Part shown: piece by piece, positions 2,140 through 47,215 of the stretch | How the letters are laid out: the number at the start of each line of letters is the position of its first letter | Numbering within the stretch: the first letter of the stretch is position 1 | NCBI RefSeq assembly: GCF_003337305.1 | Contig: NZ_QPJO01000003.1 | Span: 434,001-498,000 of the forward strand | From: Winogradskyella arenosi | GTDB lineage: Bacteria; Bacteroidota; Bacteroidia; Flavobacteriales; Flavobacteriaceae | Length of the DNA stretch: 64,000 nt | Direction: 5' to 3' | Position numbers and translations under genes: made by a program | Notes under the pieces: generated by a model | What the model was told of the DNA's origin: nothing | What the model saw: the letters and a program-made list of their open reading frames with translations, nothing else | Database searches by the model: none

Positions 2140-5100
2140 ATGCGTAAATTAATATTTGCTTTATCAACACTTGCACTTTTATCTGCTTGTACAGAACAGC
2201 AACCCACAAAAGTTTCACCACATATACTTCAAAATTTAAGCCCTTTAGATACTGGGGTTGATTTTGCTAATATGGTATCTGAAGATGCCGAACATAGCAT
2301 CATCAACTACATCTATTATTATAACGGTGGCGGCGTTGCTTCTGGTGATGTTAACAATGATGGACTTCCTGATTTATATTTTGTTTCTAATACAGGTGAA
2401 AACAAACTCTACCTCAACCTTGGCGATTTAAAATTTAAAGATGTCTCAAAGACAGCTCAGATTAGCGGGAATTCAAGCTGGAATACAGGAGTTACTATGG
2501 TTGATATTAATAATGATGGGTTATTAGACATCTATGTTTGTGCCGTTTCTGGACTTCTAGATTTTGAAGGGCATAATGAACTCTTTATTAACAATGGCGA
2601 TGGTACCTTCACAGAAAATGCCAAAGCTTACGGCCTCGATTTTAAAGGTTACTCTACCCAAGCCTACTTCTTTGATTATGATAAAGACGATGACTTGGAT
2701 GTTTATATTGTTAACCACGCGGTGCACACCACACTATCACATGGTAAAGCAGAATTAAGACACGAGAGAAAACCTTTAGTAGGTGATGTTTTACTCAATA
2801 ATAACAACGGTGTTTTTGAAGATGTCAGCGAGACTGCAAAAATCTTTGGTGGTGAAAATGGGTACGGCCTAAGCGCCTCCATCGCAGATTTCAATAATGA
2901 TGGTTGGGACGACATCTATGTCTGTAACGACTTTCATGAAGATGATTATTATTACCTCAACAACCAAGACGGCACATTTTCTGAAGAACTTGGAAAAGCC
3001 TTTAGTACTATAAGCCGCTTTTCAATGGGCAGCGATGTGGCCGATATTAATGGGGATGGTTACCAAGACCTCATTACCTTAGATATGCTCCCTAATGACG
3101 AGCGTACCTTAAAAGAAACAGAAGGCGATGATGTTATGTTTAATATACAGGCGCACTTAAAAAAACTAGGCTATAAAGATCAATATGCCCGAAATATGCT
3201 TCAGCTTAATCATCAGGGGCAATATTTCCAAGAAACAGCATTATTTAACAAAGTTGCTGCAACAGATTGGAGTTGGTCCCCCCTTTTTGCCGATTTTAAT
3301 AATGACGGGCATCAAGATTTATTTATAACCAACGGAATCTTTAGACGCCCTAATAGTTTAGATTTTAAAAAATATGTTTCCAATGCTTTTAGAGGACGTT
3401 CTGAACATGAAGCTTTAGCATGGCTTTATAATTCTATTGGGGAAATGCCAAGTGGTAAAGTCACCAACGAAATTTACCAGGGCAACTCAAAACAATTTGA
3501 ACGCCAAACCGGTCAGTGGATTGAAGACACACCTAGCCTTTCTAATGGCTCTATTTATGTAGATTTGGATGGAGACGGTGATTTAGAACTGATAACTAAC
3601 AATTTTGGTGCTGCCGCAAGTATATACAAAAATAATACCGACACCTCTAAAAACTATATCGCATTAGACTTTAAGTATAAAGGCGCTAACCAAGAAGGCA
3701 TTGGCCTTAAAGCCACAATTTATAGCAACAATAAATCACAATTAAAACAATTATTTAGATCTCGCGGCTTCTCCTCTTCGGTCAACAACCAACTCCACTT
3801 TGGACTAAACGAAGCCACAACTATCGATTCTCTCGTAATCGTATGGCCCAACCAAAAGGTTCAGACAATTAAAAACCCTAAAATTAATCAAACTTTAACG
3901 GTGAATTATTCCGAACAGAGTCGAACGTATCACCCAGAATCCCCTTCAGATTTAGCAAGCACATTTAAGAAAGCGTCTTTTATAGACTTCACCCATCAAG
4001 AAGATCATTACAATGATTTCTCTGAGGAAAAACTAATCCCTTATAGGATTTCGACCTTAGGACCGGCTCTAGCTAAAGCTGATATTGACAATAACGGTTA
4101 TGAAGATATTTTTATAGGGAATAGCTCCGGAAAGAAAGCTCAATTATTTCTGAACAACGGGCATCATTTTACCCCTTTACATATGAAAGCTATAGAAAAT
4201 GATTCGCTTTTTGAAGATAACGATGCCGAATTTTTCGATGCTGATAATGATGGTGATTTGGATCTTTACATCGCCTCTGGAATCCAAGAAGAACAGCTTG
4301 AAGAATTTCAGGTAGACCGACTGTACATCAATGACAACGGGCAGTTTAAACGCTCTCAGTCTCAAATTCCTTTAAATCCTCTAGTAACCACAGTTGTGAG
4401 CGCGTATGATTTTGATTCCGATAACGACATGGATCTTTTTATAGGAAACCACTCTGATGCCCATGATTTTGGACAAGCCGTCTCCTCGTATATTTTAGTT
4501 AACGACGGAACAGGGCATTTTACAAAACAGCCTAATTTTGAAGTAGAATCTAAAGTTACCAGCGCGCGTTGGGAAGACATTAATGGCGACCAATTAAAAG
4601 ACTTATTAGTTGCTACGGAATGGGATGCACCCAAAATTTTCTTAAACCAAAGCGGAACCTTAACCCCAACCATCGTACCTCAGCAGCTTAATGGTCTGTG
4701 GCAAACCGTTAGCACTTACGATATAGACAAAGATGGCGACCAAGATATTTTATTAGGTAATTGGGGCTTAAATACTAAATTCAACCTCAACTTTGATGGT
4801 CCATTACAGCTTTATCATTCTGACTTTGATCAAAATGGAAAAAATGAAACGCTTTTAGCCTACAATAAAGGAGGCTACTACTACCCGTTAAACACTAAAG
4901 ACGAACTCGCCTCGCAGATGAATGTGATTAATAGAATTTACACGAAACATAAAAGTTATGCTGGTAAAACCATTGAAGAAGCCCTGACTAAAACCACTAT
5001 CAATAGTGCTAAAAAGTTTGAAGTGCACCAATTAGCTTCAGGCTATATAAGAAATGACCATGGGCAGTTTAATACGTTTATTCCTTTTGACGATGCTTTA

Positions 5101-5382
5101 CAATTAGCCCCGATTACCATATTTTTAAATGTCAACGTAAAGAATGAATCACAGCTTATGGTGGCCGGAAACTCTACTAAGCTAAACAGCTATCACGGTG
5201 CTTACACGGCTTTAAAAGGCCTTTTATTAAAAAATGAAAATGATTATAAATTGATTTCAGACTACGGAATGGCTCCGATACATACGCAAGTAAAACAATT
5301 AGAAACTCTAAAGATGAAGGATGAAAATTTAATCTTAATCCTTTCTAACGACGATAATTTACTACTTTATACCTACAAGTAA
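2140..5382 (+). CDS. FG-GAP/VCBS repeat lipoprotein with ASPIC/UnbV domain
   Basis: A 1080-residue exported lipoprotein; the signal ends in the lipobox LLSAC (Cys16). At least twelve calcium-binding-type motifs of the form DxNxDGxxD can be read, in two blocks at about residues 70-490 and 640-890, as expected of FG-GAP/VCBS beta-propeller blades. Between them at about residues 500-585 lies an ASPIC/UnbV-like segment with RGFSSSVNNQLHFGL and DSLVIVWPNQ. Such proteins are common in marine Bacteroidota, but their function is poorly defined; surface binding or carbohydrate and matrix association are inferences. The haloperoxidase-type gene starts 5 bases after the stop, so the two very probably form an operon. 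The C-terminal 190 residues match no domain I recognise. Confidence 0.85.
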   Translation: MRKLIFALSTLALLSACTEQQPTKVSPHILQNLSPLDTGVDFANMVSEDAEHSIINYIYYYNGGGVASGDVNNDGLPDLYFVSNTGENKLYLNLGDLKFKDVSKTAQISGNSSWNTGVTMVDINNDGLLDIYVCAVSGLLDFEGHNELFINNGDGTFTENAKAYGLDFKGYSTQAYFFDYDKDDDLDVYIVNHAVHTTLSHGKAELRHERKPLVGDVLLNNNNGVFEDVSETAKIFGGENGYGLSASIADFNNDGWDDIYVCNDFHEDDYYYLNNQDGTFSEELGKAFSTISRFSMGSDVADINGDGYQDLITLDMLPNDERTLKETEGDDVMFNIQAHLKKLGYKDQYARNMLQLNHQGQYFQETALFNKVAATDWSWSPLFADFNNDGHQDLFITNGIFRRPNSLDFKKYVSNAFRGRSEHEALAWLYNSIGEMPSGKVTNEIYQGNSKQFERQTGQWIEDTPSLSNGSIYVDLDGDGDLELITNNFGAAASIYKNNTDTSKNYIALDFKYKGANQEGIGLKATIYSNNKSQLKQLFRSRGFSSSVNNQLHFGLNEATTIDSLVIVWPNQKVQTIKNPKINQTLTVNYSEQSRTYHPESPSDLASTFKKASFIDFTHQEDHYNDFSEEKLIPYRISTLGPALAKADIDNNGYEDIFIGNSSGKKAQLFLNNGHHFTPLHMKAIENDSLFEDNDAEFFDADNDGDLDLYIASGIQEEQLEEFQVDRLYINDNGQFKRSQSQIPLNPLVTTVVSAYDFDSDNDMDLFIGNHSDAHDFGQAVSSYILVNDGTGHFTKQPNFEVESKVTSARWEDINGDQLKDLLVATEWDAPKIFLNQSGTLTPTIVPQQLNGLWQTVSTYDIDKDGDQDILLGNWGLNTKFNLNFDGPLQLYHSDFDQNGKNETLLAYNKGGYYYPLNTKDELASQMNVINRIYTKHKSYAGKTIEEALTKTTINSAKKFEVHQLASGYIRNDHGQFNTFIPFDDALQLAPITIFLNVNVKNESQLMVAGNSTKLNSYHGAYTALKGLLLKNENDYKLISDYGMAPIHTQVKQLETLKMKDENLILILSNDDNLLLYTYK

Positions 5383-5387
5383 TCCCT

Positions 5388-6719
5388 ATGAAACAGTTTT
5401 ATTTCTCCCTTTCGTTATTAATTGTAGTGCTCTTTTCATCATGTAACACAGAAAACCCTACTATTGAAATTTCTAGTGAAGATTACCACCATGCTGTAGA
5501 TAAACTCACCCAAATTATGGTACATGATATATTTTCTCCTCCTGTAGCGAGCAGAATTTACACCTATTCTAATATTGCGGCCTATGAAACCTTAAACCAA
5601 GAGAGTTCCAACTATCATTCTTTAAGCGATCAACTAAACAACTTGTCGGTCATTAATCCAACAAAAACGAACGATAAAGTGAATTTAAAATTAGCGTCAC
5701 TCATTGCGTATTTAGACGTTGCTAAAGATTTGGTGTTTTCAAAAGAAGCGATTACCACTTACAGAGATAGCTTATACCAACATTGGAATACGCTTAATCC
5801 TGATGAATTAGAAGCTGCTCAAACTTATGGCACAACCATCTCCCAACAAGTAACAACTTGGATGCAAAAAGACCAGTATGCCGAAACCCGCACCATGCCT
5901 AACTACAACATTTACTCTGATGATCCTTCGAGATGGCAACCTACACCTCCTTCATACACCACAGGCATAGAGCCCCATTGGAGTAAAATTAGACCTTTTG
6001 TTTTAGATTCTGCAGCGCAATTTAAACCTCAAAGACATCCTGAGTTTTCATTAGAGAAAGACAGTCCGTTTTACAAAGAGGTTATGGAGGTATACACGGT
6101 TAATCGTGAGATGTCACAAAAAGGCGACGAGAGCCCAGAGGTTCTTATTGCTAAGTTTTGGGACTGTAATCCTTTTGTTTCTGTAAATAAAGGCCACTTT
6201 ATGTTTGCGGTAAAGAAAATTACACCCGGAGCGCATTGGGTAGGCATCTGTAAAATTGCCTGCAGACAAACAAAGACCGATTTTGAAAAAACCGTTTACG
6301 CCTACACCAAAATCTCATTAGGTATTGCCGATGCCTTTATAAGTTGCTGGGATGAAAAATACCGAAGCAATTTGGTACGTCCTGAAACATTAATCAACGC
6401 TTATATAGACAAATCTTGGGCGCCGGTCTTGCAAACTCCTCCCTTTCCGGAATATACCAGCGGGCATTCGGTGGTCTCAGGGGCATCTTCAGAAATATTA
6501 ACCTCTATTTTTGGTGAGGATTTTTATTTTGAAGACCTCACGGAAGTACAATACGGTTTACCCATTAGACCTTTCAATTCCTTTAGAGCAGCAGCCCAAG
6601 AGGCGGCGTTGAGTCGGCTTTACGGAGGTATTCATTATAGATCCGCTATAGATATTGGCCTTGATCAAGGGATTAAAGTGGGGACTTTAGTAAATACCAA
6701 AGTTAAATTTCTAAAATAA
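5388..6719 (+). CDS. Vanadium-dependent haloperoxidase-type PAP2 superfamily lipoprotein
   Basis: A 443-residue protein with a lipoprotein signal (lipobox VLFSSC). The C-terminal third carries the vanadate/phosphate-binding signature: Lys324 and Arg331-Pro332 spaced as K-x6-RP, Ser358-Gly359-His360, and SR-x5-H with Arg410 and His416. The usual PSGH is TSGH here. These residues are shared by vanadium haloperoxidases and acid phosphatases of the PAP2 superfamily, so the sequence alone does not decide between halide oxidation and phosphatase activity. The length and the N-terminal helical region (about residues 30-170) fit the bacterial haloperoxidase-like group better than short PAP2 phosphatases. 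It is the second gene of an operon with the FG-GAP/ASPIC lipoprotein. Confidence 0.82.
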   Translation: MKQFYFSLSLLIVVLFSSCNTENPTIEISSEDYHHAVDKLTQIMVHDIFSPPVASRIYTYSNIAAYETLNQESSNYHSLSDQLNNLSVINPTKTNDKVNLKLASLIAYLDVAKDLVFSKEAITTYRDSLYQHWNTLNPDELEAAQTYGTTISQQVTTWMQKDQYAETRTMPNYNIYSDDPSRWQPTPPSYTTGIEPHWSKIRPFVLDSAAQFKPQRHPEFSLEKDSPFYKEVMEVYTVNREMSQKGDESPEVLIAKFWDCNPFVSVNKGHFMFAVKKITPGAHWVGICKIACRQTKTDFEKTVYAYTKISLGIADAFISCWDEKYRSNLVRPETLINAYIDKSWAPVLQTPPFPEYTSGHSVVSGASSEILTSIFGEDFYFEDLTEVQYGLPIRPFNSFRAAAQEAALSRLYGGIHYRSAIDIGLDQGIKVGTLVNTKVKFLK

Positions 6720-9899: not shown

Positions 9900-10712
9900 T
9901 TAAACACCACTGTAGGCACTAAACCCACCATCAACCGGAACAACTATTCCGGTTACAAATTTTGAAGCCTCTGAACAGAGGTAATGTATAGCCCCGTTAA
10001 GTTCATCTGCCTCACCAAAACGTCCCATTGGCGTGTTTCTTATAATGGTATGACCTCTATCGGTATAAGTCCCATCTTCATTAGTAAGGAGTGCACGGTT
10101 TTGGTTTCCTATAAAAAATCCTGGTGCTACAGCGTTAACACGCATACCTTCGCCATATTTCTGAGCCAATTCTACTGACATCCATTTTGTAAAATTATCT
10201 ATAGCTGCTTTTGATGCCGAGTAGCCCATTACTCTAGTAATCACCCTATCGGCTGCCATAGAAGACATATTAATAATAGTTCCTTTTTTATGCTTAGACA
10301 TTTCTTTACCAAAGACCAAAGACGGAAGAATACTGCCAAATAAATTCAGATCTATAACCTGTTTAAATTGCTCTATATCTACATCAAAAACTGATTGACC
10401 TGGAGCCACCGTTGCGCCTGGCTTATTACCACCAGCGGCATTAATAAGCACATCAATTTTTCCATATTTAGCCATTATAGTGCTAGCCACTTCTTGAAGA
10501 CTTTCCTCCTCTACCACATTACATACATAGCCATCAACCTTATCACTTATAGCTTTAAATTCATGGATTCGTTCTAATAAAGGAGTTTCCTTATAATGTA
10601 ATAAGATTACGGTTGCCTTATTTTCTAATAAGTATTTTGCAATACCACCACCGAGAACACCACAAGCTCCCGTAACAAGAATTATTTGATCTTCTAAATT
10701 AAATAAATTCAT
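9900..10712 (-). CDS. SDR family oxidoreductase, probably D-mannonate oxidoreductase-type
   Basis: A 270-residue short-chain dehydrogenase/reductase. It has the glycine-rich nucleotide motif TGACGVLGGGIA (about residues 14-25), the NAAGG motif and a catalytic Ser in NMSSMAA. The YSASKAA segment supplies the catalytic Tyr and Lys, and the C-terminal PVDGGFSAYSGV is typical. The NAAGGNKPGATV insertion and overall length resemble the SDR-type mannonate/fructuronate oxidoreductases. That substrate is inferred and other sugar acids are possible. It is the last gene of a minus-strand cassette with a PMI-like cupin 43 bases upstream and an Nramp-fold transporter, suggesting catabolism of an imported sugar or sugar derivative. 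The bidirectional terminator lies directly downstream. Confidence 0.8.
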   Translation of the reverse strand: MNLFNLEDQIILVTGACGVLGGGIAKYLLENKATVILLHYKETPLLERIHEFKAISDKVDGYVCNVVEEESLQEVASTIMAKYGKIDVLINAAGGNKPGATVAPGQSVFDVDIEQFKQVIDLNLFGSILPSLVFGKEMSKHKKGTIINMSSMAADRVITRVMGYSASKAAIDNFTKWMSVELAQKYGEGMRVNAVAPGFFIGNQNRALLTNEDGTYTDRGHTIIRNTPMGRFGEADELNGAIHYLCSEASKFVTGIVVPVDGGFSAYSGV

Positions 10713-10755
10713 TTTATATTTTTATTTTCTTTTGATTTGTGAATTGTTAAGCTGT

Positions 10756-11850
10756 TTAATTTGGCGGGTAACACAGTAAAATTTTAGAAGCGGTGTCTGA
10801 TTTAAACGTGAGCTCTGAAATTGCTGCTGAAATAAAAATCTCATCCCCTTGTGTGTAGGAATAGGTTTTGCCATTACAGATCATTTGTCCTGCACCGGAA
10901 TAAATAACCGCCACATAAAAACAAGCATTACCTTTTATAGTGTGTTCCCCATTTAATAGAAGCTCACTTAAACCAAAGCAATTGGTATGCTTAATATTGA
11001 ATAAGGTTTTAAGCGTATATGCTTCTGTTTGTTCTAAAACTTCAGGTTCAATTTTCCATTCGTTTAAAGCTTCCTCCATAGTAAAGGTGTCGTAGTGAAA
11101 ACATTCTAACATTTTCGCTTCTCCAACCCCTTGATGAATTAACTCCGGGCCAATTTTTAATCCTGCTGGTGTTGTTTTTTCAACACGCATGGTATAATCT
11201 GTAGGCTCTTGTACCTCCATTAAAAAACAACCCGCACCAATAGCATGTGGTACACCACCATAAATCATAAAAGCATCGCCAGGTTGTACTTCTATTTTAT
11301 GCAAACAATCTAGCATTCCTTCAATATCTTGATTTTCAAAATGCGTTTGCCATAGCGCTTTTGTAACATGCTTTTTAAAGCCCATGTACACCACACTTTT
11401 TTTACCATTAATTTCCCTGGTATTCAACACATACCAAGATTCTGTTTTTCCAAATTCAGAATTAAACACGGTTTTAGCATACGCCTTATCCGGATGTACT
11501 TGCACGGTTAAACGTTCCATAGAATCGAGCATTTTTATCAATACGCCAGTAGTGCCGTACTTTTTAGCCAGGCCTTCACCTAAATATAATTCCTTATTGG
11601 CCTTTATTAGTTCTTTTAAAGAAAACGTACCCTCCGGGGTTTCAATTAGAGAAAGGCCTTCATTTTCGGGCCTACCATTTCCACGAGCCGTCACGGTAGA
11701 CATAATCCACTGCTCTGGCATCTGCCCATCTGTTTCAGGGCTATGGTTTTTCCAACGGTCAATTAAGGCACCGCCTTCGTAAGTTCTCCAAACGCGATTA
11801 GACTTTTGTTTTAAAGGTATATGGGCGTATTTCTGTAAATCTTTACTCAT
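10756..11850 (-). CDS. Class I mannose-6-phosphate isomerase-like cupin enzyme
   Basis: A 364-residue protein of the type I phosphomannose isomerase family, which interconverts mannose-6-P and fructose-6-P with a bound zinc. Zinc-site motifs are present: QVHPDKAYAK (about residues 116-125), then GDAFMIYGGVPHAIGAG with the conserved His, followed by an EVQEPTDYTMR stretch. A second cupin-like region lies near the C-terminus. It has a longer N-terminal extension than, and is only distantly similar to, the 324-residue homologue at 34472-35446. It may therefore act on a different sugar. It sits between the Nramp-like gene (24 bases upstream) and the SDR gene, so all three are probably co-transcribed. 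The substrate within the cassette is an inference. Confidence 0.82.
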   Translation of the reverse strand: MSKDLQKYAHIPLKQKSNRVWRTYEGGALIDRWKNHSPETDGQMPEQWIMSTVTARGNGRPENEGLSLIETPEGTFSLKELIKANKELYLGEGLAKKYGTTGVLIKMLDSMERLTVQVHPDKAYAKTVFNSEFGKTESWYVLNTREINGKKSVVYMGFKKHVTKALWQTHFENQDIEGMLDCLHKIEVQPGDAFMIYGGVPHAIGAGCFLMEVQEPTDYTMRVEKTTPAGLKIGPELIHQGVGEAKMLECFHYDTFTMEEALNEWKIEPEVLEQTEAYTLKTLFNIKHTNCFGLSELLLNGEHTIKGNACFYVAVIYSGAGQMICNGKTYSYTQGDEIFISAAISELTFKSDTASKILLCYPPN

Positions 11851-11874
11851 GGGTTTGTAATCTCTTAAAACTTA

Positions 11875-13149
11875 TTAGTGTACAAAATCTATAAATCCAA
11901 CTAAAGCGACATATAACATATAGCAGTTAAAAATAAACGTCGCTCCCAAGGCAAGGTTCATACCTAGCTTAGGCAGATGCGATGTCATCAGTTGAGATTT
12001 ATTCAGTAAAATTATTAAAAACAAGGTGATTAATGGCATAACAAAAGGACTTAGTGCTTGCGAGGCAATTAAAATCCAAACCGGTTTTCCGCCTAAAAAA
12101 GGCACAATTAAACCCGTTAATGCTACGAGCACCACAATACCTTTAAATAATGGTCTTTTCATATTTCGTGGTGTATTGCTATAGTCTGCAATTAACCAAG
12201 GAAATAGTAATAAGTTAGGAAATATTGACGATAAGCCTGCTCCTATGATCCCTAATGTAAATAAGGTGAGAGCAAAATCGCCTGCCCACGGACCTAATGC
12301 TGCCATTAAGTCGGTAGCATCATCAACAGGTGTGCCTTTAAAATACAGGGTTCCTGTAGCACTTATCATTATAGCAAGACTAATTAAAAAAGTCATAACC
12401 ATAGCAGAAAGTGCATCTTTATTTTCTTTCTTTAAATCGTTTAAGCCCCATTTTTCTTCATGGACTAAAATACTACGGGATGCTAAACAAACCCCAGCCA
12501 TTGTGGTACCTACAATCCCGGCAATTATTAAACCTGTATTATCACCGATAGGCAACTCCGGAAAGAAATCTACAATAGACTTCCCAGACTCTTTTATGAC
12601 CATAAAACTGGTAAATACAAAAGCCAAGGCCATAAAGCCCACCATAACACTCATCGCTTTAATAAAATTCTCGTGTTTCCCCGTCCAGAACAAACCTATT
12701 AACAAGGCCGTAAATAAAGCTGCTATAGCAGGTTTGTTTAAAAACGAAATGGATGTTTTTACGGCAATCCATTCCATAGACACCTCTGCCACCACGCCCA
12801 TGACGCCAATAACAGAAGAAATAATAGATACAACTAAGGCGGTAATAATAAATAAGGTTATGGGTTTACCAAAATTCTTTTTAAATAAAAACATCAGCGT
12901 ATCACCTGTAACAATAGTAAGTTTACTAATGGAGATTAAAAGGAAATAGGTAAAAAAACAAGAAAGCAATAAGGCCCAAGAGAGACTTAAGCCAAATTTA
13001 GCCCCAGAGACCACCATGGAGGTGACGCTTCCGGTTCCTACGACATAGCCAATGATAAAAAAGGCAGGGCCAAAATCTTTAATTTTCTTTTTTAATTTAC
13101 TCGCAAAAGTGGGAGGACTCGTATCCATAATTTTGTTGTTCGGGTTCAT
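11875..13149 (-). CDS. Nramp-fold transporter lacking canonical metal-binding motifs
   Basis: A 424-residue polytopic protein with about 11 transmembrane segments and the overall pattern of the Nramp/SLC11 family (FGPAFFIIGYVVGTGSV at the start of helix 1). In Mn/Fe-transporting Nramps helix 1 carries DPGN; here the aligned residues read GTGS. In helix 6 the usual MPH is replaced, the region reading GTTMAGVCLASRS. Both metal-coordinating motifs are therefore absent, so a MntH function should not be assumed. Its position upstream of the PMI-like and SDR genes makes a sugar, sugar acid or other organic substrate conceivable, but this is inference. It is the first gene of the cassette; a perfect-arm palindrome lies about 115 bases upstream. 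Confidence 0.8.
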   Translation of the reverse strand: MNPNNKIMDTSPPTFASKLKKKIKDFGPAFFIIGYVVGTGSVTSMVVSGAKFGLSLSWALLLSCFFTYFLLISISKLTIVTGDTLMFLFKKNFGKPITLFIITALVVSIISSVIGVMGVVAEVSMEWIAVKTSISFLNKPAIAALFTALLIGLFWTGKHENFIKAMSVMVGFMALAFVFTSFMVIKESGKSIVDFFPELPIGDNTGLIIAGIVGTTMAGVCLASRSILVHEEKWGLNDLKKENKDALSAMVMTFLISLAIMISATGTLYFKGTPVDDATDLMAALGPWAGDFALTLFTLGIIGAGLSSIFPNLLLFPWLIADYSNTPRNMKRPLFKGIVVLVALTGLIVPFLGGKPVWILIASQALSPFVMPLITLFLIILLNKSQLMTSHLPKLGMNLALGATFIFNCYMLYVALVGFIDFVH

Positions 13150-13293: not shown

Positions 13294-13323
13294 AAACCTG
13301 ACCCGTAGAAACAGGTCAGGTTT
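13294..13323 (-). terminator. Intrinsic terminator-like hairpin downstream of fabH
   Basis: The 10-bp stem AAACCTGACC (13294-13303) pairs with GGTCAGGTTT (13314-13323) around a 10-base loop. It lies 46 bases past the stop of the minus-strand ketosynthase gene. The U-tract is short on the minus strand, so termination may be moderate. Confidence 0.65.
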
Positions 13324-17996: not shown

Positions 17997-18663
17997 ATGA
18001 TGAAAATTAAAAAGATATTAGTTGCCAACCGAAGTGAAATTACCATTCGCGTGCTAAGTGCTTATACGGAATTAAATATCGCTACGGTTGCGGTATATAC
18101 CTACGAGGATTGTTATTCTCAGCTCCGGAATAAAGCCGATGAATCTTACCAAATAGGTGAAGACTACGAGCCTTTAAAACCCCATTTAGATATTAAAGAG
18201 ATTATTGGTTTAGCAAAGCGCAAACATGTCGATGCCATCCATCCGGGATATGGTTTTTTATCTGAAAATTCAGAATTTGCTAGACGTTGCGCCGAAAATA
18301 ATATTGTTTTTATAGGACCCGATCCCGAAGTCATGGACGGATGCCTTAGGCTATAAAATAACAGCAAAGAAGATCGCCGTAAAATGTCAAGTCCCTATCA
18401 TAGAAAGCAACCAAAATAGCCTAACCTCATTAAAAGTTGCACTTTATGAAGCCAATACCATTGGTTAACCCCTAATACTTAAAGCCGCATCAGGCGGTGG
18501 TGGTCGTGGAATGCGTGTGGTGCGAAATAACAAAGATTTAGAACAACATTTTGACTCCGCTAAATACGAAGCCTTAAATGCCTTTGGTGATAACACAATG
18601 CTCTCAGAGAAATATATAGAAAACCCAAAGCATATTGAATTTCTATATACGAGTAATTTATAA
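17997..18663 (+). pseudogene. Decayed N-terminal fragment of pyruvate carboxylase (biotin carboxylase domain)
   Basis: Residues 1-115 read as the start of a pyruvate carboxylase biotin-carboxylase domain (KKILVANRSEITIRVLSAY, then HPGYGFLSENSEFARRC and FIGPDPEVMDG). At about 18339 a +1 shift moves the homology into another frame, where it continues as DALGYKITAKKIAVKCQVPI-like sequence. An in-frame TAA at 18466-18468 interrupts it. Homology continues with the glycine-rich KAASGGGGRGMRVVRNN and EKYIENPKHIEF and then ends abruptly at a TAA at 18661-18663. Only about 220 of the roughly 1150 residues of the full enzyme remain. Conserved residues are also altered (SEITIR for the usual GEIAIR). This is a dead duplicate; an intact copy presumably exists elsewhere. 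Confidence 0.88.
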
Positions 18664-34471: not shown

Positions 34472-35446
34472 TTAAACGTAAACCTCCAAAAGCTTCCCGT
34501 ATTCAGACTTTAAACTAAAGTCTTTAACGGCTGCTGGAATCAATATTGTTTCGCCTTTAGAAATCTTAATTGTAATGCTATCCGTTATAATTTCAACATC
34601 ACCATCAACACACATATAAATTAGAAAAGAATCCCATTGATTATGCTTTTCAATTTTAGAATCTATTGTTATAAAATTGGTTGTAAAATAAGGACAGGTT
34701 ACCATAGTATTAGAGACATTCTTATCCTTCTTGTAAGACACTCTATAATCGTCTTCCATGTTAAAATCAAAGGCATCAATGGCAATATCATTATGCAATT
34801 CACGCTCCTTACCGTTAGCATCAACACGGTCCCAATCATACACTCGGTAGGTTACATCACTAGTCTGCTGTATCTCTGCTAAAAGGACACCCGCCCCAAT
34901 AGCATGGACTCTACCCGCTTCAATAAAATAGGTATCGCCTTCTTTTACGGTATCAAAATTTAAAATTTTGGTGAGGCGTTTTTCATCCAAATGCTTTAAG
35001 TAAATTTCTTTATTTACTTTTTTATTAAAACCTACAATTAAGTTAGCGGCTTCATCAGCTTGCATCACGTACCACATTTCTGTCTTTCCGAAGGAATTGT
35101 GACGTTTTTTAGCCAGTTCATCATTAGGATGCAGTTGAATGCTTAGATCTTGTTTAGCATCTATAAATTTAATAAGCAATGGAAAGGCCTTACCAAAACG
35201 TTCCCAATTTTTTTCACCTAATAAAGCTGATTGATGCTCATTGACTAAATCTTGTAAAGACTGCCCAGATAAGGCTCCGTTAGAAACAATAGAAACAGCT
35301 TCTGGAACGGTACTAATCTCCCAACTTTCGCCCAAAACTTTCGACTCAGAAGCTTTGTTAAAGTATTCATGTAATTTGCTTCCTCCCCAGATTTTATCTT
35401 TTAATATAGGTTGAAACTTTAATGGGTATAAACTTGATTTCATCAT
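34472..35446 (-). CDS. manA: Type I mannose-6-phosphate isomerase
   Basis: A 324-residue zinc enzyme interconverting mannose-6-P and fructose-6-P, supplying GDP-mannose for surface polysaccharides. Family motifs are LKDKIWGGSKL near residue 15, QLHPNDELAKK (zinc-binding) and EAGRVHAIGAGVLLAEIQQ. It is a short-form PMI as in Bacillus and many Bacteroidota. The start codon overlaps the stop of the QueD-like gene by one base, indicating an operon with that gene and idi upstream. This is the more canonical of the two PMI-like genes in the window and is the likely housekeeping copy. Confidence 0.88.
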   Translation of the reverse strand: MMKSSLYPLKFQPILKDKIWGGSKLHEYFNKASESKVLGESWEISTVPEAVSIVSNGALSGQSLQDLVNEHQSALLGEKNWERFGKAFPLLIKFIDAKQDLSIQLHPNDELAKKRHNSFGKTEMWYVMQADEAANLIVGFNKKVNKEIYLKHLDEKRLTKILNFDTVKEGDTYFIEAGRVHAIGAGVLLAEIQQTSDVTYRVYDWDRVDANGKERELHNDIAIDAFDFNMEDDYRVSYKKDKNVSNTMVTCPYFTTNFITIDSKIEKHNQWDSFLIYMCVDGDVEIITDSITIKISKGETILIPAAVKDFSLKSEYGKLLEVYV

Positions 35447-39424: not shown

Positions 39425-42400
39425 TTAATTATTTTTTATATATAAATATCCTTGATTCGTTAAGGTCTCTCTCCCTACAAATCGTCTTAATATATAGAAG
39501 TAGGTTCCTGTTGGTAATTCTTCATCTTTATTAATGGTACCACGACCGTCAGAGACTCCGGTAAATACCTTACCGTTGATGCCGTAGCCATCCATATCAT
39601 AAATTAACACACCCCAACGGTTATAGATTTTCAAATTATTTTGAGGATAATCTTCTATTCCTATAATTCTGAAGAAATTATTATCACTATCACCATCTGG
39701 TGTAATAGCATTAAATATTTCGAATTGCGCATTTAAGATTTCTGGCAAATCCGTAACTGTAGGATCATCGGGTTCATTATCATCATTAAGGTCTATATCG
39801 TCAAAATTATTAGGATCATCGGAGGTGTCCGTGTAGGTCACTCCATCTGCTCCGGTTGCCGTAACAATAGCTTGATTGGTGACATGACCGTTGGCAATAT
39901 CTTCTTCAGTAAGCGTGTAAGTCGCTACAAAAGTGAAGTCATCTATTCCACCTGCTTCTAATTCGGCAATAGGACCGCCTTCGATGATAATACCTGGAAG
40001 AGGATCCTCAATGGTTATATCATAAAGCGTTATGAACCCAGTGTTGTAAACCGTAAAGGTGTAGCTTAACGTTTCACCAACTTCTGGAACACCACTTCCG
40101 TTTTCATCATTAAAAACTCCCACTTTTTCTAGGGACAGTCCTCCAGATAGACAGATGGCCGTAATGGTAACATCATCTTCCATGGTGCTATCATCATCCG
40201 ATAAATCCATCAACATGGTTCCGTCCATCAAATTCATTCCTGTAAGCATAGCTTGATTATTAACGATACCAGCTTCAATATCAGTTTCAGTAAGTGTGTA
40301 ATCTGCGGTATACCACCACGTTTCATTTACATCTAACTCAGTATCGGCATCATCATCTCCAGAAGCAAGCGTCATAACACCGCCAAGCATACTATCTGTT
40401 AATTCTACTAAAGGCACACTTAAATTACCTTCATTGGTAACTTGGAATGTATAAGAAATTGTTTCACCTATATTTCCACATCCATCAGAATTATCGTCAT
40501 TAAAAACACCGGTTTTCACTACTGCGATTGCTGCTTTTTGGCATAAAATCATTTCAGTGATATCATCTTCTGAAGCACTATCATCATCCGATAGATCCAT
40601 CACAGCAGAACCATCACTAACAGTAATACCTGTAACCGTTGCTTGGTTGTATATAATTCCTATATCAATATCAGATTGGGTAATGGTATAATCGGCAACA
40701 TAGGTCCACGTTTCATCACTATCTAATTGGCTGTCGCCGTCTGTATCTCCTGAAGCTAAATCCATAAGACCTCCTAGCATCACATCTGTTAATTCTACCG
40801 ATGCTATACTTGAATCGCCTTCATTAGTCACTGTGAACGTATAAGTAATGGTTTCACCGATATTAGCACAATCATCTGCGTTAAGATCATTATAAACCCC
40901 CGATTTGACTACTGCTATTGCTCCAGGCGATAGGCACACTTGTGTTTCTGTTGCATCATCTTCTAATACACTATCGTCATCCGATAAATCTGTAAGTATA
41001 GTGCCATCTATTGCACTTATACCATTTACTGTGGCTTGATTACTCACCATTCCTGCATCAATATCAGCTTGAATTAAGGTGTAGTCCGCGGTATAAACCC
41101 AGATTTCATTAACATCGAGTTGATTGTCAGCATCTATATCTCCTGATGTAAGCGCGATGAGACCACCAAGCATGGTATCCGTCAACTCTACATTAGTAAT
41201 GCTAGTGTTTCCTTCATTAGTGACGTTGAACGTATAAGAAATCGTTTCTCCGGCGTCACCACAACTATTGCTATTCTCGTCGTTAACTTCGGCCGTTTTT
41301 ATAAGTGCTATCGCTGCAGGTAATTGACATACCTCGGTTTCTGTGGCATCATCTTCTAAAACGCTATCATCATCCGATAAATCTGTAAGTGTTACACCAT
41401 CAATAATGTTTATTCCACTTACTGTGGCTTGATTGCTCACCATTCCTGCATCGATATCAGCTTGTAATAAAGTGTAATCTGCGGTGTAGATCCATATTTC
41501 ATCAACATCTAACTCATTGTCGGCATCGGTATCTCCTGAAGCTAACGTTAAGAGACCTCCTAACATCGTATCTGTTAATTCAACATTGGTGATGCTTGTG
41601 TTTCCTTCATTAGTGACGTTGAACGTGTAAGAAATGGTTTCTCCTGCATCGCTACAACTGTTGTTATTTTCGTCATTAACTTCGGCCGTTTTTATAAGTG
41701 CTATACCTGATTCTAATGGCAAGATGAGATCGGTAATATCATCTTCTAAAACGGTATCATCATCCGAAAGGTCTTCTAGCGTTGAACCGTCAATGCTACT
41801 TGTTCCGGTTACTACAGCTTGATTACTTACGATGCCTGCATCAATATCTGATTGTGTGATACTATAACTTGCAGCATACAACCAAACTTCATCGACATCT
41901 AGGATGTTATCACTATTGTCGTCTCCTGAGGCTAAAGTGAGTTCTCCGCCTAACATAGCATCTGTAAGAACAACATCTGTTATCGTGGCTTGCCCTTGGT
42001 TGGTGACTGTAAAACTGTAGGTTATAGTTTCTCCTAAGTTTGCATAACCATCACTATTTTCATCATTAAAAACTGCCGTTTTTATCACTGCGATGCCTGA
42101 TTCTAATGGCAAGATTAAATCGGTAATATCATCTTCTAAAACGGTGTCATCATCCGAAAGGTCTTCTAGCGTTGAACCGTCAATGCTACTTGTTCCGGTT
42201 ACTACAGCTTGATTACTTACGATGCCTGCATCAATATCTGATTGTGTGATACTATAACTTGCAGCATACAACCAAACTTCATCGACATCTAAGATGTTAT
42301 CATTATTGTCGTCTCCTGAGGCTAAGGTGAGTTCTCCGCCTAACATAGCATCTGTAAGAACAACATCTGTTATCGTGGCTTGTCCTTGGTTGGTGACTGT

Positions 42401-45400
42401 AAAACTGTAGGTTATAGTTTCTCCTAAGTTTGCATAACCATCACTATTTTCATCATTAAAAACTGCCGTTTTTATCACTGCGATGCCTGATTCTAATGGC
42501 AAGATGAGATCGGTAATATCATCTTCTAAAACGGTATCATCATCCGAAAGGTCTTCTAGCGTTGAACCGTCAATGCTACTTGTTCCGGTTACTACAGCTT
42601 GATTACTTACGATGCCTGCATCAATATCTGATTGTGTGATACTATAACTTGCAGCATACAACCAAACTTCATCGACATCTAGGATGTTATCATTATTGTC
42701 GTCTCCGGAGGCTAGTGTTAATTCTCCGCCTAACATAGCATCTGTAAGAACAACATCTGTTATCGTGGCTTGTCCTTGGTTGGTGACTGTAAAACTGTAG
42801 GTTATGGTTTCTCCTACATTTGCATAACCATCGCTATTTTCATCATTAAAGAGTACCGTTTTTATCACTGCGATGCCTGATTCTAATGGCAATATTAAAT
42901 CGGTAATATCATCTTCTAAAACGGTGTCATCATCCGAAAGGTCTTCTAGCGTTGAACCGTCAATGCTACTTGTTCCGGTTACTACAGCTTGATTACTTAC
43001 GATGCCTGCATCAATATCTGATTGTGTAATACTATAACTTGCAGCATACAACCAAACTTCATCGACATCTAAGATGTTATCATTATTGTCGTCTCCTGAG
43101 GCTAAGGTGAGTTCTCCGCCTAACATAGCATCTGTTAATGTCACATCTGTAATACTCGTAGTTCCTTCGTTGGTAACTGTAAAATTATAGGTGATTGTTT
43201 CGCCGACATTAGCATAACCATCGTTATTTTCATCATTAAAATCGGCTATTTTAATCACGGCAACTTCTGCAGACTGCGGCAAGTCAATTACCGTAAAATC
43301 ATCTTCAAAAACAGAGTCGTCATCCGAAAGGTCACTTTCTTCTGTTCCATCATCAACATTAACGGATGTAATGCTTGCTTGGTTACTAACTGAACCTGTA
43401 TCTACATCGGCTTGTGTAAGCGTGTAGCTCGCAGAATACAACCATATCTCATCGACATCCAATTCATTATCACCATCTGTATCACCAGAAACCAAAGTTA
43501 ATTCGCCACCCAGCATAGTATCCGTTAACACCACATCGGATAAATCTACGCTACCTTCATTTGTTACGGTAAAGTCATAAGTCAAAGTTTCTCCAACTTC
43601 AGCAAATCCATCTGTATTTTCATCATTAAATTCTACTGTTTTAATTACAGCAATATTGGCCGTATCACACAAATTTGAATTTGTTGCATCGATATACCCA
43701 CCATAGACTTCTATAGAATTAATAACACTAGCGAGTGAGCCTACCGTAATTTGAATTTCATCAAAACTTAAAGTCGTATTAAAAGCCACAACATATAAGC
43801 CATTTGTAGTTAATGGCGTTATATTAATTAAACCTAAAGCTTCTAAAGTCAATAAATTACTTGCTGTTTTTTGCTCGCGTTGCAGACCGTTTAAATAGGT
43901 GGTTAAGGTTATTGAATTTAACAGATCGACTTCTAATAAATCGTTTGTATCTCTAATAACGAACCCTGCTCTTGTTCCTGCAGGATATTCTAAAAGCACA
44001 TCTTGTACAGAAAGCGATGCGCTTCCCGCAACCCCTGCTACAATATTGATTAATGCAAAATCACTCCCCTCTTGCGTCAATACATTTTGAGAATTATCAA
44101 CCTCACAAGCTACGCAGGCCAAACCATCGGTTCCTGTTCTGAAAGAATTAATAATTACAGAATCATTGGGATTGGCTAATACATAAGGATCTTCACAATC
44201 TATAGTTCCTGCACAGAAAGCTTCTAAAACCACATTATAAATTCGTGTACTTCCTAAATTCACAGACACGAGTTGAGAGAGGCTTATTTGAACCTCATCA
44301 AAAGGGGCAGACGCTACAAATCCAACTCTTATAGCTTCATTACCGGTCAATAACAAACCTGAATTTACAGGTACAAGCTCGGTGGTACCTGTATGAGATT
44401 CTACCAAGGCTCCATTATTATAAGTTGATATGGTAATGGCATCTAACAACTGAGTATTTAATAAACTTGCATTTTCAATATCGAATCCGGCATATGTCAT
44501 TGCTGGGTATTCCGTTAATTCGTCTTTTACGGCTAAGGCTGCAGTTGCTGCAACTCCCGCCAACAAATCTATTGTGGCATAATTTCCTGCATTAGAATCG
44601 AACAAGTTATCTATATTATTAACACTGCCCACCCCGAGTAAACCTCCCGTTCCGGTATGTTCATCTACAATTCTCATTGGAAAATCTGGTTTGATTAAGG
44701 CCGTTGGCGTATTACACGCTAAATCTGGCCCTTCACAAAATCGGTTTGTTACCGCATGATAGACACGCGTAGAGGACAAAACATTTAATAAACTGGCTAT
44801 TGAAATTTCAATAGCATCATAATCCATAGTGGTATAAAACCCTATATAATATTTATCGCTCCCTAATAAAGTACTATTTACAACGGCTAAGGCTGAACTT
44901 GTTTTAGATTCTTGCTCTACACCATCTAAATACGTTTTAATAACAATTGCTTCTAGTAAATCTGCTTGAAGAATAGAACTGTTCTCTATGAGTAGCCCTG
45001 CATAACCACCAGTGGTAAAAAATTCTCCTGCTGTGGCGTCGGTTACTCTAAGCGTATGGGTTGTACCAAGTCCTACTCCTGTAGTGATTGTGGCATAGGT
45101 AGATTCATCTCCGTCGATTAAATGAGCGTCATTATAAATCCCACAACCTAACACGCAAGTCCCTGAAGTATTTGTATTCACTGTTAGATCCGTAAACCCA
45201 GAACTCGTAATTGGCACAGGATCTACTGTATTACAAGGCACCTCATATTGAACCCCATCGGTATTTACAATAAAGGATTCTGTAGCTTCACAACCTAGCG
45301 CATCTGTAACCGTAACCGTATAGGTTCCTGGTGACAATCCTGAAATGGAATTTGTGGTTTCTCCACCCGGACTCCATTCAAAAGTATAAGGCGGTGTACC

Positions 45401-47215
45401 TCCTGATACCGCTACTGATAAGCTACCGTCTGTAATACCGAGTGTAGTTTCATTAATTACTGTACCTTCAATCTGAATAGTAGTATCTACATAACTTCCG
45501 TAAACTTCAATACTATTTATAACAGCAGCTAAAGCACTTACAGAAAGTTTAATTTCATCATAATTGAAGCTGGTTTCAAAACCTACCAATAAGAAACCAT
45601 CCGTTGTTGCTGGTGTAATATTTATAAGTCCTAATGCTTCTAAAGCGAGTAAATTACTGGCTGTTTTAGATTCTAACAATGTCCCGTCTAAATAAGTACT
45701 TACCGTTAAAGAATTTAATAAATCAACTTGTAATAAATCATTGGTATCTCTAATAATAAATCCAGCCGTGCTCCCTAAAGGAAACGTACTTAAGACATTT
45801 TCTACTGCTATTGAAGCGGTATTAACTACACCAGCCACGACATTGATCATGGCAAAATCAGAATTACTTTCACTAATCACATGATTGGCATTATCAACCT
45901 CACACCCTACACAGGCTAATCCTTCTATACCTGTGTTCGTATTATTGATAATTACAGGCTGTGATGGATTACTCAGAACCGTTGCAGAACTACAGGCAAG
46001 TTCTCCTTCACAAAAAGACTTTAAAACTAATCCGTAGACTCTTGTGCTTCCTAAGTTGACAGAAAGCGTTTGGCTTATAGATATTTGTACTTCATCAAAA
46101 GGTAAATTGGTTACAAACCCTACCTGAGAACGTTCAGACCCCGTTAGCAAGAGCGCACTATCTAAAGCTATTAACTCAGAACTTCCTGTTTGACTTTCTT
46201 GTAGTGATCCATTTAAATAGGTTGAAATGGTGACACCATCAAGTAAATCTAAATTAAGAACAGATGTATTTTCAATATCAAAACCTGCATAAGTATGCTC
46301 AGGATACGCTGTAAATTCATCTTTAATAGAGAGACTACCCGTTGCTAACACCCCTAAGGTAAAATCTATACTCGCGTATGAGTTAGCATTAGAATCTACG
46401 GCTGCTGTAGCATCGATAACACTCCCTACACCTAAAACGCCGCCGAATCCAGTGTGTTCCTCCACTATTCTAGCCGGAAAATCGGGTTTTGTTAACGTTG
46501 TTGGTGTATTACAAACCAAGTCTGGTCCGGCACAAAAGCTATTGGTTACGGCATGATAAATTTTAGTGGAAGAAAGTACCCCTGCTAAACTAGACAATGA
46601 AATTTGAATGGCATCAAAATCTTCAGTAGTATAAAAACCTACATAAAACTGATTAGACCCCAACAAGCTCGTATTAATAACCGCTAAGGTATTACTCGAT
46701 TTTGATTCTTGCTCTACCCCATCTAAAAAGGTCTTGACAACAATATTATCGAGCAAATCTACTTGCAATACCGTGCTATTTTCTAATAAAAATCCGGCAT
46801 AATTCCCACTGTTATAAAATTCATCTGTTGTTGTATCTTCAACCTTAATAGTATGTGTTACCCCTAGGCCTACAGCAGTCGTTACTGTGGTATAATTAGT
46901 CTCATCACTATCTACCAAAGCATTTTCGTTACTTATACCACATCCTAGAATACATAAACCAGAAGTATTACTACTTACCGCTATATCCGTATAATTTGAG
47001 GCCGATATAGGTACTGGGCTATCCGTATTACATAGAACGCTTACAGAACTATAGTAAAGATGAGCATCTTTAATAAAAGAATGGAACTCTGAATGTTCGG
47101 GCTCTGACCTCGTAACAGACAACAAACTTAACATCAAAACGATGAGAAATAACATTGATTTAAAACGTACAATAAAGCTTTTCAGAATGTGGAATTGGAA
47201 AGTAGGTCTATCCAT
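39425..47215 (-). CDS. Giant T9SS-secreted adhesin with type B sorting domain
   Basis: A 2596-residue surface protein. The N-terminal signal is hydrophobic (LFLIVLMLSLLSVTRS); an internal Met21 may be the true start. It is followed by two copies of a three-module block (about residues 62-580 and 658-1180), separated by one SprB-type repeat (about 580-655; SGGTPPYTFEWSPGG). Ten DUF11-like repeats follow (about 1183-2470), each with acidic, calcium-loop-like DENSDGYAN and GDDNNDNILDVDE segments. The last 105 residues are a T9SS type B (CHU_C/gliding-associated) sorting domain (FNAITPDGDSDNNFF, KIYNRWGVLIYD). A role in adhesion or gliding is inferred from the family and the adjacent SprF gene. 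It is the first gene of the operon. Confidence 0.9.
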   Translation of the reverse strand: MDRPTFQFHILKSFIVRFKSMLFLIVLMLSLLSVTRSEPEHSEFHSFIKDAHLYYSSVSVLCNTDSPVPISASNYTDIAVSSNTSGLCILGCGISNENALVDSDETNYTTVTTAVGLGVTHTIKVEDTTTDEFYNSGNYAGFLLENSTVLQVDLLDNIVVKTFLDGVEQESKSSNTLAVINTSLLGSNQFYVGFYTTEDFDAIQISLSSLAGVLSSTKIYHAVTNSFCAGPDLVCNTPTTLTKPDFPARIVEEHTGFGGVLGVGSVIDATAAVDSNANSYASIDFTLGVLATGSLSIKDEFTAYPEHTYAGFDIENTSVLNLDLLDGVTISTYLNGSLQESQTGSSELIALDSALLLTGSERSQVGFVTNLPFDEVQISISQTLSVNLGSTRVYGLVLKSFCEGELACSSATVLSNPSQPVIINNTNTGIEGLACVGCEVDNANHVISESNSDFAMINVVAGVVNTASIAVENVLSTFPLGSTAGFIIRDTNDLLQVDLLNSLTVSTYLDGTLLESKTASNLLALEALGLINITPATTDGFLLVGFETSFNYDEIKLSVSALAAVINSIEVYGSYVDTTIQIEGTVINETTLGITDGSLSVAVSGGTPPYTFEWSPGGETTNSISGLSPGTYTVTVTDALGCEATESFIVNTDGVQYEVPCNTVDPVPITSSGFTDLTVNTNTSGTCVLGCGIYNDAHLIDGDESTYATITTGVGLGTTHTLRVTDATAGEFFTTGGYAGLLIENSSILQADLLEAIVIKTYLDGVEQESKTSSALAVVNSTLLGSDKYYIGFYTTMDYDAIEISIASLLNVLSSTRVYHAVTNRFCEGPDLACNTPTALIKPDFPMRIVDEHTGTGGLLGVGSVNNIDNLFDSNAGNYATIDLLAGVAATAALAVKDELTEYPAMTYAGFDIENASLLNTQLLDAITISTYNNGALVESHTGTTELVPVNSGLLLTGNEAIRVGFVASAPFDEVQISLSQLVSVNLGSTRIYNVVLEAFCAGTIDCEDPYVLANPNDSVIINSFRTGTDGLACVACEVDNSQNVLTQEGSDFALINIVAGVAGSASLSVQDVLLEYPAGTRAGFVIRDTNDLLEVDLLNSITLTTYLNGLQREQKTASNLLTLEALGLINITPLTTNGLYVVAFNTTLSFDEIQITVGSLASVINSIEVYGGYIDATNSNLCDTANIAVIKTVEFNDENTDGFAEVGETLTYDFTVTNEGSVDLSDVVLTDTMLGGELTLVSGDTDGDNELDVDEIWLYSASYTLTQADVDTGSVSNQASITSVNVDDGTEESDLSDDDSVFEDDFTVIDLPQSAEVAVIKIADFNDENNDGYANVGETITYNFTVTNEGTTSITDVTLTDAMLGGELTLASGDDNNDNILDVDEVWLYAASYSITQSDIDAGIVSNQAVVTGTSSIDGSTLEDLSDDDTVLEDDITDLILPLESGIAVIKTVLFNDENSDGYANVGETITYSFTVTNQGQATITDVVLTDAMLGGELTLASGDDNNDNILDVDEVWLYAASYSITQSDIDAGIVSNQAVVTGTSSIDGSTLEDLSDDDTVLEDDITDLILPLESGIAVIKTAVFNDENSDGYANLGETITYSFTVTNQGQATITDVVLTDAMLGGELTLASGDDNNDNILDVDEVWLYAASYSITQSDIDAGIVSNQAVVTGTSSIDGSTLEDLSDDDTVLEDDITDLILPLESGIAVIKTAVFNDENSDGYANLGETITYSFTVTNQGQATITDVVLTDAMLGGELTLASGDDNSDNILDVDEVWLYAASYSITQSDIDAGIVSNQAVVTGTSSIDGSTLEDLSDDDTVLEDDITDLILPLESGIALIKTAEVNDENNNSCSDAGETISYTFNVTNEGNTSITNVELTDTMLGGLLTLASGDTDADNELDVDEIWIYTADYTLLQADIDAGMVSNQATVSGINIIDGVTLTDLSDDDSVLEDDATETEVCQLPAAIALIKTAEVNDENSNSCGDAGETISYTFNVTNEGNTSITNVELTDTMLGGLIALTSGDIDADNQLDVNEIWVYTADYTLIQADIDAGMVSNQATVNGISAIDGTILTDLSDDDSVLEDDATETQVCLSPGAIAVVKSGVYNDLNADDCANIGETITYTFTVTNEGDSSIASVELTDVMLGGLMDLASGDTDGDSQLDSDETWTYVADYTITQSDIDIGIIYNQATVTGITVSDGSAVMDLSDDDSASEDDITEMILCQKAAIAVVKTGVFNDDNSDGCGNIGETISYTFQVTNEGNLSVPLVELTDSMLGGVMTLASGDDDADTELDVNETWWYTADYTLTETDIEAGIVNNQAMLTGMNLMDGTMLMDLSDDDSTMEDDVTITAICLSGGLSLEKVGVFNDENGSGVPEVGETLSYTFTVYNTGFITLYDITIEDPLPGIIIEGGPIAELEAGGIDDFTFVATYTLTEEDIANGHVTNQAIVTATGADGVTYTDTSDDPNNFDDIDLNDDNEPDDPTVTDLPEILNAQFEIFNAITPDGDSDNNFFRIIGIEDYPQNNLKIYNRWGVLIYDMDGYGINGKVFTGVSDGRGTINKDEELPTGTYFYILRRFVGRETLTNQGYLYIKNN
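41706..43136 (-). repeat. Near-identical 390-bp tandem repeats inside the adhesin gene
   Basis: Tandem units start at 41706, 42096, 42486 and 42876, an exact 390-bp (130-codon) period; the last unit diverges after about 43136. They encode DUF11-like repeats 2 to 5. Linked variants alternate: aagatgagat at 41721 and 42501, versus aagattaaat or aatattaaat at 42111 and 42891. This suggests a recent duplication of a two-unit block. Confidence 0.95.
45250..45480 (-). other. SprB-type repeat within the adhesin
   Basis: A single module of about 75 residues with SGGTPPYTFEWSPGGETTNS, then GLSPGTYTVTVTDALGC, typical of SprB repeats in gliding and T9SS adhesins. It separates the two large N-terminal block copies. 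Confidence 0.85.

Follow-up and report, generated by a model that had tools for sequence, protein, structure and literature searches.

An Nramp-fold transporter with an altered metal site in a sugar-enzyme gene unit of Winogradskyella arenosi: a candidate hexuronate permease

What does a transporter of the Nramp fold carry when its metal-gripping residues are gone and its neighbours encode sugar enzymes? The question is raised by three minus-strand genes in a 64,000-nucleotide stretch of the Winogradskyella arenosi genome (contig NZ_QPJO01000003.1, positions 434,001 to 498,000; the whole stretch is hereafter called the window), which encode an Nramp-fold transporter, a protein resembling phosphomannose isomerase (PMI) and a short-chain dehydrogenase/reductase (SDR) of the D-mannonate oxidoreductase type (Table 1). 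The open reading frames (ORFs) all lie at the positions given for them in an original prediction made from the sequence alone, and the genes form a tight unit with gaps of 24 nt (transporter to isomerase) and 43 nt (isomerase to SDR). On balance, we favour the view that the transporter belongs to a distinct Nramp-fold clade, of which the branch containing the window protein carries sugar acids (hexuronates) and not metals, with D-mannuronate as the most likely substrate in the window. The protein is probably a sugar-acid importer because the metal-gripping residues are lost and enzymes of acidic-sugar breakdown adjoin it in many relatives.

The transporter clearly belongs to the Nramp superfamily, matching the Pfam Nramp model (PF01566) with 174.5 bits against a cut-off of 29.8 and also passing the cut-off of the NCBIfam model 'Nramp family divalent metal transporter'. 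Its predicted structure (predicted local distance difference test score 90.6) has the LeuT/Nramp fold and matches structures of Nramps and of the related NRMTs with Z scores of up to 43.4, followed by APC amino-acid transporters at approximately 27–30. The fold is shared with DraNramp (8e5s; Z 43.4, 380 residues, 2.7 Å), EleNRMT (7qia; Z 42.5, 391 residues, 3.2 Å, 17% identity), DMT1 (9f6n; Z 38.6, 395 residues, 3.6 Å) and BfraNramp (10ky; Z 38.5, 373 residues, 3.1 Å). EleNRMT, a Mg/Mn transporter, is also the closest PDB sequence, and a phmmer alignment places Gly38 and Ser41 in transmembrane helix (TM) 1 of the window protein at its Asp55 and Gly58, and Thr215, Ala218 and Gln364 at its Thr224, Ala227 and Gln379; Glu133 falls on Val116, and the position of Asn234 is occupied by Arg225 in TM6b. 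Since the alignment thus puts Gly38, Ser41 and Ala218 at the metal positions, DPGN is replaced by GTGS and MPH is missing, as the original prediction had claimed; its assignment to the Nramp fold is borne out by the Pfam score and the structure match.

The resulting site pattern, GxxS on TM1 and TxxA on TM6, fits neither of the motif sets that passages of PMC8806188 give for metal Nramps (DxxN-A/CxxM) and NRMTs (DxxG-TxxA/T). The window protein has GTGS where canonical metal Nramps have DxxN and T215xxA218 where they have A/CxxM, and we therefore rejected a canonical Mn/Fe Nramp of the MntH kind. Membership of the NRMT family was likewise rejected, because the TM1 Asp and Gly of DxxG are absent; the TM6 pattern TxxA/T of NRMTs is present (T215 and A218, with Ala at 218 in 61 of the 114 clade members aligned). 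The same passages describe Asp55 as "universally conserved" in SLC11 proteins and report that its mutation strongly compromises transport by EleNRMT (PMC8806188). Nramp-related proteins without the known metal and proton motifs have already been mentioned in a preprint, with no organic substrate assigned in the sections cited here (PMC12873925).

These residues bear directly on the alternative that the transporter still moves a divalent ion (Mg, Mn, Fe or Ca) for the pathway, be it as cofactor of the mannonate dehydratase UxuA or the PMI-like enzyme or as an ion freed from alginate, which we regard as unlikely, though not negligibly so. It draws on the Nramp fold, on EleNRMT as the closest PDB sequence, and on the TM6 TxxA and the TM10 Gln shared with NRMTs. 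However, the Asp55 that EleNRMT needs for transport (PMC8806188, in the passages cited above) is Gly in the clade, with an invariant Arg225 instead. The window protein differs further from EleNRMT in its linkage to uronate genes, and no M-box and no Mg or Mn riboswitch was found for the window protein: at Rfam gathering thresholds, the window and the four related loci L075, L077, L141 and L148 (L numbers denote the loci compared) gave only eight tRNA matches, and a riboswitch-controlled metal importer was rejected on this basis.

To place the altered site in the family, relatives were collected at three levels. The whole transporter protein, searched against 199 genomes of the family, hit 38 places in 32 genomes above 200 bits, below which scores drop to 152 bits (a fragment in genome G037) and then to 114. 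Across the phylum, 20 of 296 genomes gave hits at E ≤ 1e-60; of the 18 stretches fetched, 17 contain the transporter. A wider scan of genome contigs found at least 508 relatives in many phyla and many metagenome bins, of which the best 80 were kept; a pattern containing GTGSVT served to select them, and similarity to the window protein to rank them. Left out were two G037 fragments, L103 and L105 (transporter lost in ORF calling) and L088, L089 and L121 (duplicates of L035, L036 and L037). The counts below refer to 117 GTGS anchors or to 114 transporters, the latter mostly best-ranked relatives of the window protein.

Because the best 80 were selected by pattern, we claim motif conservation only from the family and phylum sets, except for Arg225, which lies outside the pattern. 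All 38 family members (window included), which were found with the whole protein and without the motif, carry GTGS, GTT and the Arg, and the motif is therefore not a product of chance; so do all 17 loci of the phylum search. Arg225 is present in 114 of 114 clade members, whereas 19 of 21 other Nramp-type proteins compared have His at this position. Only E126, R225, D245 and D322 among the charged residues of the window protein are kept in more than 85% of the clade. In a quick IQ-TREE phylogeny, the 114 proteins lie on one side of a branch with full support (SH-aLRT 100) and form a well-supported clade; the window protein carries all of its defining features (GTGS[VI]T, GTT and an Arg in TM6b). 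Among the best 80 of the at least 508 relatives, clade members come from Bacteroidota, Acidobacteriota, Pseudomonadota, Planctomycetota, Calditrichota and others, often as metagenome bins. A sampled group with GPGT or GPGS in TM1, resembling PxpT and YcsG, falls on a separate branch in this tree, which has long branches and contains no named PxpT or YcsG sequence; the placement of EleNRMT, 10ky, L003, L153, L154 and L171, all on long branches, is unsure.

A precedent for an organic substrate is PxpT. According to parts of PMC13274462, the Nramp-family protein PxpT of Corynebacterium glutamicum is required for growth on 5-oxoproline, and it resembles the window protein in being encoded in a catabolic operon and needed for the use of an organic acid. 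The proteins compared by motif, GPGT/S relatives sampled here and not the named PxpT and YcsG sequences, differ from the GTGS clade at TM1, in the His that replaces Arg225 in 19 of 21 and in their separate branch. YcsG of Bacillus subtilis, a relative of PxpT whose TM1 motif is not part of our comparison, is described as a Mn importer in the parts of PMC10448178 cited here, which favours the divalent ion. Published work thus disagrees on whether Nramp-family proteins of this kind transport organic acids or metals, and the GTGS clade is a strong place to settle the dispute. None of the three Nramp-family proteins in the genome has DPGN, a further point for the divalent ion, but as FeoB is encoded, the genome is not without another metal importer. 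The second of the three (L001, G000:C2:906415-910467), a likely PxpT relative with GPGT and also without the metal Asp, carries IGPGTVT and GTTVVPYNLFLH and lies beside the gene for the 5-oxoprolinase subunit PxpA. The third (L003, G000:C5:57062-61123) is divergent (49 bits), has GVSH and APLD at the two helices and adjoins a lipoyl synthase-like gene, as judged by eye.

The genes near the transporter point to sugar acids. The assignments of UxuA and UxaC rest on curated models that score above cut-off with cluster representatives (for UxuA the representative in L091, with 553 bits against 200). A PMI-like, UxuA, UxaC or UxuB-type gene lies within four genes of 47 of the 114 transporters; the PMI-like gene is the neighbouring gene in 29, and in 25 it follows directly downstream on the same strand. 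The order transporter–PMI–SDR–UxuA recurs at seven loci (L075, L077, L078, L080, L082, L086 and L141). Because L075 of Winogradskyella vidalii and the window have flanking genes in common on either side, the window unit looks like the L075 cassette minus UxuA and one more gene. UxuA is absent from the three-gene unit, which does not encode the route from hexuronate to 2-keto-3-deoxygluconate (KDG) within one operon, and is present in the sister cassettes.

Across these loci, the enzymes are exchanged around the transporter, and one cassette can also house different transporters of the clade. In L129, L132, L139, L140 and L141, the PMI-like protein is 67–82% identical to that of the window, whereas the transporter, from another branch of the clade, is only 36–37% identical; the SDRs of L139 and L141 reach 81–82%. 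L046 and L050 encode UxaC instead of PMI, in the order UxaC–SDR–transporter–UxuA, and L148 (Alteromonas) and L150 (Paraglaciecola) combine a UxuB-type gene, UxuA, transporter and PMI without the SDR. The UxuB-type protein of L148 was assigned by Pfam Mannitol_dh, all NCBIfam models remaining below cut-off (D-arabinitol 4-dehydrogenase 311 bits, fructuronate reductase 289 bits). The exchanged enzymes all meet at fructuronate and mannonate while the type of transporter stays constant, which is the strongest argument for the proposed substrate class and, as the linkage tracks the pathway and not an individual enzyme, speaks against a divalent ion. The tree requires at least 9 changes for PMI linkage and at least 12 for UxuA linkage, as raw counts with losses included. 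Among the best 80 of the at least 508 relatives included, links to PMI-like or UxuA genes occur in Bacteroidota, Pseudomonadota and a bin of the Pirellulaceae.

The two enzymes of the unit fit this pathway. The PMI-like protein has the cupin fold of the type I PMI 1qwr (Z 33.2, 310 residues, 2.8 Å) and shares with ManA the candidate metal-site residues Q117, H119, E137 and H202, which presumably form the PMI metal site. Its matches to PMI families are weak: two Pfam domains score just above cut-off, and it falls below the cut-off of the ManA equivalog model TIGR00218 (97.8 against 116.2 bits) and carries an N-terminal NRVWRTYxGG block of its own; as a second homologue, likely an ordinary ManA, is encoded elsewhere in the window, the PMI-like gene is a paralogue. 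In a reverse search, the PMI-like protein was found in 5 of the 199 family genomes (E ≤ 1e-40), all five of which encode a GTGS transporter, adjacent in four. The SDR exceeds the cut-off of the D-mannonate oxidoreductase model NF006132 (353.4 against 281 bits).

An improbable alternative retains the sugar-acid transporter but lets both enzymes act on the unsaturated alginate monomer (DEH) in a KduI/KduD-like route to KDG. In several loci, L035 and L141 among them, alginate lyases, KdgF and SusC adjoin the transporter and PMI, and DEH keeps the C2 configuration of mannuronate, as this alternative would expect; the SDR, however, scores at most 136 bits with KduD models, UxuA follows in the seven cassettes, and in two loci a UxuB-type gene stands in for the SDR. 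The genome, moreover, has a separate SDR–KdgK–Eda set in an alginate locus elsewhere, together with PL6, PL17, KdgF, SusC, SusD and MFS genes (non-lyase genes identified by models built here). A likely glucuronate operon (L212, G000:C1:519048-536205) encodes UxaC, UxuA (G000:C1:527048-528205), an SDR of the D-mannonate oxidoreductase type that is 40% identical to that of the window, and a TRAP transporter, which takes the place held by the Nramp-like protein in the window unit.

Returning to D-mannuronate as the preferred substrate, we propose the following hypothetical route, in which (i) the transporter would import D-mannuronate, a monomer of alginate; (ii) the PMI-like enzyme would isomerise it to D-fructuronate, an aldose–ketose step like that from mannose to fructose; (iii) the SDR would reduce D-fructuronate to D-mannonate; and (iv) UxuA from the glucuronate operon would convert D-mannonate to KDG. 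In the transporter, the unwound TM1 segment GTGS, freed of the metal-binding Asp, may offer backbone amides and hydroxyls to the substrate, and Arg225 in TM6b may contribute a positive charge. A GSG motif in APC amino-acid transporters binds carboxylate analogously. The scheme shares the fructuronate reductase and mannonate dehydratase steps with the UxaC–UxuB–UxuA pathway, whose UxaC or UxuB-type enzymes replace PMI or SDR in sister loci, and differs in its PMI-type cupin isomerase and in a transporter of the Nramp fold instead of ExuT or TRAP.

How far this holds beyond the window depends on the wider clade. Within 5 kb of the 38 members found without the motif, PL6, PL17, KdgK and gluconokinase/6-phosphogluconate dehydrogenase genes each occur in 12 cases, PL7 in 11, Eda in 8, KdgF in 7, NagA and NagB in 6 each and UxuB-type genes in one; alginate or KDG genes lie within approximately seven genes in 3 of the 17 loci of the phylum search. 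From the neighbour counts in these two sets, alginate linkage is frequent, the mannonate branch being one part of the clade and other branches probably serving other sugars. Of the 114 transporters, 72 have uronate or alginate genes within 5 kb and 11 have Nag genes. Among 20 control Nramp-family hits from genomes of the same family, none has PMI, UxuA, UxaC, UxuB, PL6, PL7, PL17, KdgF, KdgK, Eda, NagA or NagB within 5 kb; BT_2158 occurs in three and SusC, SusD and GH2 in one each. At least one of 14 families accompanies 84 of 117 GTGS anchors versus 3 of 20 controls (all three by BT_2158), a contrast that does not support chance association, although the models used to recognise neighbours derive from the GTGS loci themselves, the loci are mutually related and one control stretch (L156) spans only 6 kb. 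The controls were intended as canonical MntH proteins; all 20 have GPGT or GPGS and none DPGN.

Several observations weigh against a hexuronate as substrate. Both UxuA and PMI depend on a metal, so that a supplier of metal would still have a place, and alginate lyases release free saturated mannuronate only as a minor product. PMI, UxuA and UxaC lie within 5 kb of only 4, 2 and 2 of the 38 motif-independent members, and within approximately seven genes at 0, 0 and 1 of the 17 loci of the phylum search, where NagA or NagB (4) and GH2 (6) are found. A strong PMI/UxuA link is confined to relatives close to the window, and counts over the 114 transporters favour the cassette of the window because these are mostly its best-ranked relatives; in 33 of them, no uronate, alginate or Nag family lies within 5 kb. 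As the substrates of NagA and NagB are not acids, a sugar acid is not the sole substrate of the clade. An MFS transporter is present in some alginate loci (11 of 117), and in the fifth genome of the reverse search (G129), PMI-like gene and transporter lie on different contigs. The authors of the PxpT study, for their part, leave metal transport possible in the sections cited (PMC13274462).

The linkage to isomerase and SDR genes anticipated by the original prediction therefore holds for close relatives of the window, where it also takes in mannonate dehydratase and alginate lyases, and is not general (PMI in 4 of 38 and 0 of 17). One branch of the clade is linked to NagA/NagB and another to GH2, GH20 and NagB, which would suit a transporter of neutral sugars (mannose or a hexosamine) with acids being incidental; we consider this quite improbable for the window, as its part of the tree, with UxuA, UxaC, UxuB-type genes and alginate lyases, points to acids. 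GTGS branches with NagA, NagB or BT_2158-like dehydrogenase genes (L038, L039, L041, L042, L044, L048, L049, L108 and L111) suggest an amino-sugar substrate there. In the alginate branch, a gluconokinase–6-phosphogluconate dehydrogenase fusion or part of it occurs in 14 of 117 loci, and in L058–L063, L065, L066 and L068 it adjoins or lies near the transporter beside alginate lyases. Of the substrates considered in the original prediction, a sugar or sugar acid or a different ion, the uronate-gene linkage favours the sugar acid, and the metal keeps its smaller share, given the Mn importer YcsG reported outside the clade.

In the parts covered, a review of hexuronate metabolism assigns UxaC, UxuB and UxuA to glucuronate and the DEH route to alginate and names no mannuronate isomerase (PMC6353982); a search of open PMC papers found none on mannuronate isomerase or mannuronate catabolism. 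For Nramp proteins and polysaccharide utilisation loci, the same kind of search found only PMC6431674, one figure legend of which labels an Nramp in alginolytic systems of Alteromonas as a metal-ion transporter, a protein whose motif lies outside our comparison. A term search for a metal-type transporter in sugar use gave nothing in the portion of PMC9007349 covered.

The features of the unit are collected in Table 1. The hairpin upstream of the transporter is the likely upstream border; a promoter scan gave no excess over shuffles for the promoter types it covers, and the terminator scan called no site directly 3' of the SDR gene. By eye, a hairpin is visible just past the end of the SDR gene and is not counted as part of the unit.

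Table 1. Features of the three-gene unit and related elements in the window
Feature	Position	Strand	Length	Remarks
Nramp-fold transporter, GTGS clade	11875..13149	-	424 aa	GTGSVT 38-43 in TM1, GTT 214-216 in TM6, Arg225, Gln364 in TM10
PMI-like isomerase (type I phosphomannose isomerase fold)	10756..11850	-	364 aa	proposed D-mannuronate/D-fructuronate isomerase
SDR, D-mannonate oxidoreductase type	9900..10712	-	270 aa	proposed fructuronate reductase
Terminator-like hairpin	13294..13323	-		between upstream FabH-like gene (by eye) and transporter; 13 pairs, 6 G-C, T-rich tail
Second PMI homologue, likely ordinary ManA	34472..35446	-		25% identical to PMI-like protein; outside unit

Elsewhere in the window, a 119-aa ORF (17997-18356) comprises only a biotin carboxylase N-terminal domain (134 bits) and is probably a gene fragment, a 2596-aa protein (39425-47215) contains ten DUF7507 stretches and a type IX secretion signal domain, and an FG-GAP/ASPIC-UnbV protein is paired with a following PAP2-superfamily protein (2140-6719, plus strand).

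In summary, we tentatively propose that a multi-phylum branch of the Nramp superfamily has turned its metal site into one for organic sugars and sugar acids, by the change of Asp to Gly and an Arg in TM6b, giving a new type of permease, and that the window branch possesses an undescribed D-mannuronate route from a PMI-type isomerase via fructuronate reductase to UxuA. If so, the Pfam and NCBIfam annotations of such proteins as metal transporters would mislead, and marine alginate and uronate catabolism would gain an inner-membrane transporter and an isomerase. The Nramp fold would then offer a clean case of a substrate change from cation to organic anion, addressable by swapping two or three residues.

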